Source: Treponema sp. (GTDB lineage: Bacteria; Spirochaetota; Spirochaetia; Treponematales; Treponemataceae). From it: a stretch of 64,000 nucleotides of DNA. How positions within the stretch are numbered: the first letter of the stretch is position 1; each line of letters opens with the position of its first letter. Location of the stretch: contig JAKSTI010000008.1 of the NCBI GenBank assembly GCA_024402665.1, positions 25,874 through 89,873 on the forward strand, given 5' to 3'. The notes under the pieces are model-generated. The model worked only from the letters and a program-made list of their open reading frames with translations, made no database searches and was not told the origin of the DNA. The translations under genes were made by a program, and so were the position numbers. Below are positions 56,971 through 58,478 of this stretch, piece by piece.

Positions 56971-58260
56971 CTAAATTGCTGCAAAAGCCTGATCCAGATC
57001 TGCAATAATATCATCAATGTGTTCTGTACCAATGCTTAAGCGAATTGTACTCTGACTGATTCCCTGATCTGCAAGTTCTGTTTCTGTAAGCTGACTGTGA
57101 GTTGTTGTAGCTGGATGAATTACAAGAGATTTTACATCGGCAACGTTAGCAAGAAGACTGAAAATCTTAAGGTTATCAATAAACTTCCATGCAGTTTCTT
57201 TTCCACCTTTAATTTCAAATGTAAAGATTGAACCTGCACCAAGTGGGAAATATTTTTTGTATAAAGCATGTTCCGGATGATTTTCCAAAACTGGATGATT
57301 AACTTTTTCTACTAAAGGATGTTTGCTCAAATATTCAACAACCTTAAGTGCATTTGAAACGTGACGCTCCAAACGAAGACTTAAAGTTTCCAATCCCTGC
57401 AAAAGAATGAATGCATTAAATGGACTGATTGTTGCACCAGTGTCGCGCAAAATTACAGCACGGATTCTTGTAACATAAGCAGCTTTTCCTGCAGCTTCTG
57501 TAAATTTTACTCCGTGGTAGCTTGGGTCTCCTTCGCTAAGTAATGGGAATTTTCCGCTGGCAGCCCAGTCAAAATTACCGCTGTCAACAATTACACCACC
57601 AAGGCTTGTTCCATGACCGCCAATGAATTTTGTAGCAGAATGAACAACAATATCGGCACCGTGTTCAATTGGACGGAACAAATATGGAGTACCAAAAGTA
57701 TTATCTACAATCAGTGGGATTTTATTATCGTGTGCAATTTTTGCAATTGCTTCCACATCAAGAATATTTGAATTTGGATTTCCTAAAGTTTCAATAAAGA
57801 GGGCTTTTGTATTTGGTTTAATTGCCTTTGCAAAGTTTGAAACATCAGAGCCATCAACAAAAGTTGTTTCTACACCAAAGTTTGCCAGTGTGTGAGCAAG
57901 AAGATTGTAACTTCCACCATAAATTGTTTTAGCACTAACAATGTGATCTCCGGCTCCGGCAATATTCTGGAAAGCATAAGTAATTGCTGCTGCACCACTG
58001 GCAACTGCAAGACCTGCAACACCACCTTCCAAAGCAGCAACTCGGTCTTCAAAAACTCCCTGTGTTGAGTTTGTAAGACGACCGTAAATATTACCTGCAT
58101 CACTTAAACCAAAGCGGGCAGCCGCATGTTCTGCACTGTGGAAAACGTAAGCTGCAGTCTGATAAATTGGAACTGCACGAGCATCTGTAGCTGGATCAGC
58201 ATTTTCCTGACCAACGTGTAACTGTAAAGTTTCGAAATGTAATTTGTTATTTGTAGACAT
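56971..58260 (-). CDS. metY: O-acetylhomoserine sulfhydrylase (aminocarboxypropyltransferase)
   Basis: PLP enzyme of 429 residues that makes homocysteine from O-acetylhomoserine and sulfide (or methionine from methanethiol). Typical segments: HFETLQLHVGQ, VPIYQTAAYVF, YGRLTNSTQGVFEDRVAALEGG, and PLP lysine in VVHSATKFIGGHGTSLGG; C-terminal SIGTEHIDDIIADLDQA. SD AGAGG lies six bases before the ATG. It is preceded by a leader peptide ORF ending in alternating Cys codons, a strong hint of Cys-responsive control. No other sulfur gene is adjacent. Confidence 0.95.
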   Translation of the reverse strand: MSTNNKLHFETLQLHVGQENADPATDARAVPIYQTAAYVFHSAEHAAARFGLSDAGNIYGRLTNSTQGVFEDRVAALEGGVAGLAVASGAAAITYAFQNIAGAGDHIVSAKTIYGGSYNLLAHTLANFGVETTFVDGSDVSNFAKAIKPNTKALFIETLGNPNSNILDVEAIAKIAHDNKIPLIVDNTFGTPYLFRPIEHGADIVVHSATKFIGGHGTSLGGVIVDSGNFDWAASGKFPLLSEGDPSYHGVKFTEAAGKAAYVTRIRAVILRDTGATISPFNAFILLQGLETLSLRLERHVSNALKVVEYLSKHPLVEKVNHPVLENHPEHALYKKYFPLGAGSIFTFEIKGGKETAWKFIDNLKIFSLLANVADVKSLVIHPATTTHSQLTETELADQGISQSTIRLSIGTEHIDDIIADLDQAFAAI

Positions 58261-58266
58261 AATATA

Positions 58267-58296
58267 CCTCTGTGTAAAGCGCCCAACTCGAGCGCT
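58267..58296 (-). promoter_or_regulatory. metY ribosome-binding region with upstream hairpin
   Basis: On the minus strand AGCGC-N9-GCGCT forms a hairpin about 8 bases before ACAGAGG, the metY SD (complement at 58267-58272). The hairpin has no T-run after it, so it is not a terminator. The SD sequence CAGAGGU can pair with GCCUCUG inside the upstream leader peptide. Confidence 0.55.
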
Positions 58297-58327
58297 AATT
58301 TAAAAAAATTTTGATAAACTCAATTAA

Positions 58328-58399
58328 TTAACAGAAGCAGAGGCACATGACGCCGTTTCTAAAATTCTCGCGAACCAGTTTTTCAAAATAAAACTTCAT
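58328..58399 (-). CDS. Cys-rich leader peptide upstream of metY
   Basis: A 23-codon ORF on the minus strand, too short for standard gene calling. It has a near-perfect SD (AAGGAGG, complement 58405-58411) five bases before ATG, begins MKFYFEKLV, and ends in Met-Cys-Leu-Cys-Phe-Cys-stop. Three Cys codons in the last five positions, upstream of a sulfur-amino-acid enzyme, are the mark of a nutrient-sensing leader. The Cys-codon segment (UGUGCCUC) is complementary to the leader's own SD (GAGGCACA), and GCCUCUG to the metY SD. Mechanism is inference. Confidence 0.75.
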   Translation of the reverse strand: MKFYFEKLVRENFRNGVMCLCFC

Positions 58400-58422
58400 T
58401 TGTGCCTCCTTTAAGTATTATG

Positions 58423-58439
58423 CCTACCTATCCGGTAGG
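58423..58439. promoter_or_regulatory. Palindrome just after the metY transcription start
   Basis: CCTACC-N5-GGTAGG, perfect six-base arms, located about +4 to +20 of the metY leader transcript. A related half TACCTAG overlaps the -35 region. Candidate operator for a sulfur regulator (Rrf2-type is one option), or a 5' RNA hairpin. Confidence 0.5.
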
Positions 58440-58449
58440 TTATGTTTTT

Positions 58450-58478
58450 ATGTTACTCCTACTTACCTAGTATGTCAA
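58450..58478 (-). promoter_or_regulatory. metY leader promoter
   Basis: Minus strand TTGACA (58473-58478), 17-base spacer, TAACAT (58450-58455). Transcription would start near 58443, giving an untranslated leader of about 44 bases before the leader peptide. Confidence 0.7.

Follow-up and report, generated by a model that had tools for sequence, protein, structure and literature searches.

A conserved leader peptide of Treponema and Clostridia that precedes metY and other sulfur genes and is proposed to stall the ribosome under methionine or cysteine scarcity

In a 64,000-nucleotide stretch of Treponema sp. DNA (the window), metY is preceded by a short leader ORF whose peptide is conserved and recurs upstream of other sulfur genes. 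With moderate confidence, based on comparison of the leaders, we propose that a scarcity of methionine or cysteine lets the nascent leader peptide halt the ribosome at Met18 or at the Cys codons next to it, and that the gene downstream would likely be opened in consequence. An earlier note on this DNA had described the leader and its terminal Cys codons and had interpreted them as a translational control in which a shortage of Cys-tRNA frees metY. The observation was right and understated whereas the interpretation is partly supported.

The features of the locus, all of them on the minus strand, are compiled in Table 1. The 23-codon ORF and its Shine-Dalgarno sequence (SD) were readily recognized in the sequence. 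The perfect complementarity claimed for the Cys-codon segment and the leader's own SD was likewise confirmed by reading: UGUGCCUC (58347-58340) is complementary to GAGGCACA (58408-58401) over 8 bases. Part of the leader 3' segment is alternatively able to pair with the metY SD, in that CAGAGGU (58272-58266) and GCCUCUG (58344-58338) form the 7 pairs, one of them G-U, that had been described. The leader RNA of the window folds with a z of -3.97 relative to dinucleotide shuffles, 1 of 200 of which was as good. As the earlier note had stated, no terminator-like site was found between the leader and metY on the minus strand; nor did a search of the window for Rfam riboswitches or T-boxes yield a match at the gathering score. 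The promoter, described as strong, agrees with the consensus at 10 of 12 positions, but such a match alone is weak, as a scan of 56000-60500 contained 12 promoter-like sites compared with 12.6 in shuffled sequences. The intergenic region is shared with a divergent ORF of 123 aa (58576-58947, plus strand) that by eye is RidA-like.

Table 1. Features of the metY leader locus in the window
Feature	Position	Strand	Basis
metY, O-acetylhomoserine sulfhydrylase, 429 aa	56971..58260	-	TIGR01326, 643.9 bits vs cut-off 495.1
metY SD region CAGAGGU	58266..58272	-	sequence; predicted openness of the metY start
Leader ORF MKFYFEKLVRENFRNGVMCLCFC, 23 codons plus stop, upstream of metY	58328..58399	-	sequence; conserved peptide family
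Leader 3' segment, end of codon 18 to codon 23; Cys codons 19, 21, 23	58331..58347	-	3' arm of the leader-SD pairing
Met18 codon, invariant among the leaders examined; proposed stall site	58346..58348	-	AUG in 118/118, 35/35 and 20/20 leaders
Leader SD AAAGGAGG at 58412-58405, plus CACA; 5' arm pairing with codons 18-20	58401..58412	-	sequence and within-locus pairing preference
Operator-like palindrome, second one, CCTACCGGATAGGTAGG	58423..58439	-	CCTA-N7..9-TAGG motif
Promoter-like site TTGACA-N17-TAACAT	58450..58478	-	10/12 consensus positions
Operator-like palindrome, upstream one, CCTATTGACATACTAGG, overlapping the -35	58466..58482	-	CCTA-N7..9-TAGG motif

The upstream regions of metY at 110 first loci served as the starting sample; in many Treponema they encode short peptides that are nearly identical, in clostridial records less similar ones. 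A 22-column profile was searched against 200 same-genus genomes, and the leader was found in 86 of them, including the window's own, a genome carrying as many as four copies. The earlier note had regarded a leader ORF that is not conserved as grounds for abandoning its proposal; the outcome was the opposite. The window's own genome possesses a second copy (L186, G000 C31:32934-32993) that precedes a gene for a MetN-like ABC ATPase. With the same profile, matches were obtained in 24 of 392 genomes from across the phylum, some of them in further genera of the family, and in 28 of 391 from the Clostridia, searched as the class of one clostridial metY record; an 18-column profile matched 21 of 297 genomes of one clostridial order. 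None of 200 genomes of the Bacilli and none of 9 genomes of other groups matched, both being weak negatives in that neither group held a positive control. The same-genus set comprises 110 of the 113 matches listed, counted by hand, the others being one unfetched, one weak and one identical with L029. Among the further loci, L275 could not be found again, a class match lacked a locus, and 15 loci fetched twice were removed before the gene starts were assigned.

The core of the leader family reads L-x-R-x-N-[F/Y/W]-R-x-G-[V/R]-M. Among the 110 same-genus leaders F5, R10, N12, R14, G16 and M18 are each present in all 110, L8 in 109 and V9 in 107, and yet codons 8, 9, 10 and 14 are each represented by five to seven different codons. 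The median dN/dS was 0.074 for 94 spirochaete loci of less than 70% identity (434 of 800 pairs usable, 366 saturated or failed) and 0.306 for 27 clostridial loci (170 pairs usable, 181 saturated or failed). Invariant residues encoded by varied codons, together with the low dN/dS, indicate that the peptide is kept, beyond the DNA alone; the nascent-chain sequence is conserved above the codon level, as would be expected of an arrest peptide. Like an attenuator, the leader is a short ORF with an SD, in the same sense as the gene and mostly no more than 260 nt upstream of it. The matches of the recurring peptide in many genomes had E values nearly always between 1e-15 and 1e-9; since the peptide recurs and the pairing of SD and tail is better within than between loci (see below), the leader lies beyond chance. 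Six leader-like ORFs, three of them from this family, were compared with the known leader models of NCBIfam and belonged to none of the families. Strong conservation would also be displayed by a small protein that acts in trans, for example as a partner of sulfur enzymes. This explanation seems highly improbable to us, as some genomes encode several copies, each followed by a gene in the same orientation, the coding segment pairs with its own SD, and the tail is absent from 14 of 153 leaders.

Those 14 leaders end exactly at Met18 (2 of 118 spirochaete leaders and 12 of 35 in a first clostridial set). Met18 itself is encoded by AUG in every spirochaete leader and in every leader of the first clostridial set and of a second one (20 leaders). 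Cys is concentrated behind it: in the 118 spirochaete leaders Cys accounts for 37% of the residues after Met18 compared with 1 of 2043 before, and in the 35 leaders of the first clostridial set for 23% compared with 8 of 614. C21 occurs in 89 and C22 in 70 of 110 leaders, mostly outside the paired segment. The earlier note had expected conserved Cys codons at the 3' end, and the enrichment bears this out, but 21 of 153 leaders contain no Cys codon after Met18 (8 of 118 in spirochaetes, 13 of 35 in the first clostridial set), nor, by reading, do 4 of 20 in the second clostridial set. The number of Cys residues in the tail is weakly related to the type of gene downstream when MetQ/N are compared with Cys-type genes (p 0.019, uncorrected); with MetQ/N of spirochaetes only, p is 0.068, also uncorrected. 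Judged from the sequences, Cys codons are common but dispensable and Met18 never varies.

The enrichment of Cys behind Met18 and the positions of C21 and C22 are what a plain Cys-codon attenuator would display, in which a shortage of Cys-tRNA stalls the ribosome and frees the metY SD and the peptide plays no part. A run of Cys codons would then be expected in every leader, which the leaders without Cys after Met18, including those that end at Met18, contradict, and a core conserved as a peptide despite free synonymous change is not accounted for. We regard this explanation as unlikely. The earlier proposal that a stall on the Cys codons frees metY is affected in the same way: the opening is predicted at this locus (see below), but the invariant part of the leader consists of the core and Met18.

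The codon that precedes Met18 would suit slow decoding in the Clostridia. Arg17 is encoded by the rare CGA in every clostridial leader of the two sets (35/35 and 20/20), relative to 3% CGA among 325 Arg codons in the genes downstream of the first clostridial set, and Arg10 and Arg14 of the same leaders, unlike Arg17, use many codons. The base preceding the clostridial CGA17 varies, so pairing explains its retention poorly. Among the Arg tRNAs found in a leader-bearing genome (G547) the anticodons are ACG, CCG, CCT and TCT; as TCG is not among them, CGA would be read by inosine-adenosine wobble. Decoding of CGA by this wobble is slow. In yeast, CGA-CGA codon pairs are described as inhibitory (PMC6301793). 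In spirochaetes CGA is not kept at codon 17, where it occurs in 13 of 36 Arg17 leaders. Position 17 is Val in 65 of 118 spirochaete leaders, encoded by GTC in 62 of the 65 compared with a background of 10%, a preference that fits pairing with the leader SD and start.

Pairing was assessed by comparing the duplex energies of each locus's own partners with those of shuffled partners, a comparison that only partly removes shared ancestry. L143, L171, L172, L204 and L210, where the gene matched as metY was another one or a distant one, were dropped. In the 71 metY loci of Treponema the leader SD pairs with codons 17-22 at -12.75 for own partners relative to -10.97 for shuffled ones, and none of 1000 shuffles was as good. 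Restriction to loci of less than 70% identity yielded z -5.3 for 52 metY loci, z -10.2 for 94 loci of all contexts, and the same absence of equally good shuffles (0/2000 in both) in 38 non-metY loci (0/2000). Contiguous helices of at least 7 between leader SD and tail are formed in 70 of 118 loci, relative to a maximum of 58 in 500 shuffles, and linked changes are visible, for example in the AUU-UCC tails of L205, L207 and L215, which are accompanied by A/U-rich SD flanks. Of the covarying pairing that the earlier note had suggested looking for in Treponema, a preference holds for the tail and the leader's own SD but not clearly for the tail and the metY SD: codons 17-22 and the metY SD gave z -1.4 (166/2000; less than 70% identity), and the lack of clear selection for this pairing in Treponema argues against the plain Cys-codon attenuator. 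The longer segment from Met18 to +45 displayed some signal with the metY SD (4/2000).

The Clostridia differ. In the first clostridial set (22 loci, less than 70% identity), codons 17-22 pair with the gene SD (z -5.5, 0/2000), and the leader SD paired with the codons gave 227/2000. The signal with the gene SD was not repeated in the second clostridial set (z -0.7, 475/2000), nor was a clear signal obtained there for Met18 to +45 (794/2000) or for the leader SD (105/2000); this set consisted of 19 loci, three already-used loci having been removed and 19 of 20 having a metY start. As the pairing partners differ by lineage while the core stays, it appears that the peptide is constant and the RNA switch variable.

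The effect of a paused ribosome was predicted by folding with a ribosome mask at Met18; loci with a leader-to-gene spacing of at least 180 nt were left out, and 66 of 71 Treponema and 31 of 31 clostridial loci were kept. At the window's locus (L129) the predicted openness of the metY start rises from 0.11 to 0.41 and that of the leader SD from 0.38 to 0.70. That the tail at this locus can pair with the metY SD and that the mask at Met18 opens it would also suit the plain Cys-codon attenuator. In the 31 clostridial loci the predicted openness of the gene start increases from 0.406 to 0.541, compared with 0.418 when the mask is placed 33 nt earlier, although swapped gene ends also gain (0.485 to 0.545). 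The increase in the 66 Treponema loci, from 0.407 to 0.488, is little above that of swapped ends (0.439 to 0.493). A predicted gain of more than 0.15 was obtained for 12 of 31 own compared with 21 of 118 swapped ends in the Clostridia and for 21 of 66 compared with 52 of 257 in Treponema.

The gene might be controlled by Rho or RNase instead of by masking of its SD, in that a leader which closes itself would leave its RNA bare and prone to termination or cleavage, while a stalled ribosome would protect it. The pairing selected in Treponema, which closes the leader's own SD, is consistent with this scheme, and the spacing between leader and gene, about 20 to over 250 nt, speaks against a single masking hairpin. 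A strong hairpin just after the leader stop also speaks for the scheme; it is present in 38 of 110 leaders, compared with 1 to 14 of 109-110 leaders at each of six further offsets and with 3% of shuffles, and by eye it mostly lacks a U-run. The pairing of the tail with the gene SD in one clostridial set argues against the scheme, which we consider unlikely. The hairpin, though common in Treponema, is not found at the window's leader and for this reason has been kept out of the mechanism that we favour. Where present (L113, L118, L124, L139, L144-L148, L155, L157 and others) its stem often reads GGCTGAA-AGNCC-TTTAGCC, with changed pairs (ACCGGAA/TTTCGGT), and AAAATC often follows.

Of the genes downstream of the 153 leaders, metY is the most frequent, with its start set in 102. 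The others include MetQ (12), MetN (3), cysK (3), family-3 solute-binding proteins (2), URO-D/MtbA-like proteins (10), LanC-like proteins (6), AMP-ligase-like proteins (2), together with singletons. For most groups a single member was compared with Pfam or NCBIfam, and the rest were identified by BLAST cluster or by eye, the latter applying to MetN, NifX, the AMP-ligase partners and the last cysK. At L208 the leader precedes an operon of NifB-like, NifX-like, NifH-like and cysK-like genes and at L188 a NifH-like gene; presumably, these Nif-like genes resemble nitrogenase-like sulfur-scavenging reductases. The LanC-like, AMP-ligase-like, M20-type amidohydrolase, SDR and porin-like proteins have no evident role in sulfur metabolism. 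As far as the gene annotations go, the leader marks a regulon of mostly sulfur genes.

The metY proteins of the 80 loci listed, among them Treponema, clostridial and Bacteroidales proteins, are 59-77% identical to the window's metY. Such identity across several phyla makes it likely that the metY cassette has moved between phyla by gene transfer, and the occurrence of the leader in two phyla is perhaps not independent. The leader might then be a passenger of a horizontally spread cassette in which the upstream palindromes, as repressor operators, alone regulate metY. Of 118 spirochaete leaders, 108 have CCTA-N7..9-TAGG in the 220 nt before them, compared with none of 118 control stretches, and the motif also lies upstream of 10 of 16 leaderless metY loci; for clostridial leaders the numbers are 9 of 35 and 0 of 35 controls. 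The two palindromes of the window form a CCTA-N9-TAGG pair around the promoter. A mere passenger is very improbable in view of the purifying selection on the peptide, the location of the same leader in front of many different genes and the linked changes by which the tail pairing is kept. The palindromes are likely the operators of some regulator that would act apart from the leader.

Other Cys-rich ORFs also precede metY. Loci of the Lachnospiraceae type (L044, L052, L074, L100, L104) contain a different leader, ..MCCxRMxxSRAxxMAG[A/S]xG.., apparently representing a second family of metY leaders. The short Cys-rich ORFs at L048, L063, L089 and L090 have little beyond R-M-C in common with the core and are perhaps remote relatives of the family described here.

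In the mechanism that we favour, the core chain in the tunnel would slow the ribosome at codons 17-19, and charged Met-tRNA at codon 18 and Cys-tRNA behind it would decide whether the ribosome proceeds. A paused ribosome would prevent the tail from pairing, such that the gene start would open where the tail masks it. In Treponema the paused ribosome would keep the leader's own start open, which the tail would close once the ribosome has cleared the leader; the gene might be affected through masking by neighbouring bases, as predicted for the window, or through exposure to Rho or RNase. The pause would turn the gene on, a direction of response (shortage, genes on) that is suggested by the fact that most of the downstream genes are supply genes. 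That one Met codon alone should serve as the sensor would be unusual, which counts against the mechanism.

No description of the leader family was found in searches of the open literature, peptide fragments included. In Arabidopsis, the MTO1 region of CGS1 causes arrest on its own mRNA when SAM is in excess, and in this system too a nascent chain controls an enzyme of sulfur amino acids; here, in contrast, the leader is separate and the expected response is to shortage. Translational attenuators of the ErmCL kind possess a leader ORF on which a stalled ribosome unmasks a downstream SD. Such unmasking would be permitted by the pairing of tail and gene SD selected in one clostridial set, but no drug is involved, the genes are sulfur genes, and the Treponema tail has the leader's own SD as its partner. 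The TnaC sequence is not known to be related to that of the leader family. The likeness to TnaC lies in a conserved nascent chain and, in the leaders that end at Met18, a stop right after the last conserved residue; the differences are the sulfur genes, the arrest, which here is only predicted, and in Clostridia the rare CGA before the last residue. TnaC as an arrest peptide and translation attenuation are treated in PMC8429421 and PMC13236596, respectively. Cys leader peptides without terminators precede sulfur genes in Actinobacteria (PMC1262725), and polycysteine leaderless sORFs are reported for mycobacteria (Canestrari et al. 2020). The likeness comprises a short ORF with Cys codons near the stop, upstream of sulfur genes and without a terminator. 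The leaders examined here differ from these in their strong SD, conserved core and invariant Met18, in that some lack a Cys codon, and in a tail that pairs with the leader SD or the gene SD.

More tentatively, we suggest a wider reading in which the leaders would be bacterial arrest peptides of a family not described before, sensing sulfur amino acids on the ribosome by means of the chain L-x-R-x-N-F-R-x-G-R while a slow CGA occupies the P site and AUG the A site. Whether a sulfur regulon is translated would then depend on a single Met codon and on the Cys codons behind it, and Treponema and Clostridia would operate different RNA switches with the same peptide. Leader ORFs of this kind are expected to be skipped by usual gene calling because they are so short, and the leader motif provides a marker of the sulfur regulon. 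With the invariant CGA-AUG pair, the slowing of decoding by wobble could be tested directly in a natural sensor. If the proposal is true, it would present a natural case of one peptide that is kept while the surrounding RNA switch changes. It would also extend the bacterial sensors of sulfur amino acids by one that is based on a peptide, and explain how Treponema and Clostridia of the gut and rumen may time the acquisition of methionine and cysteine.
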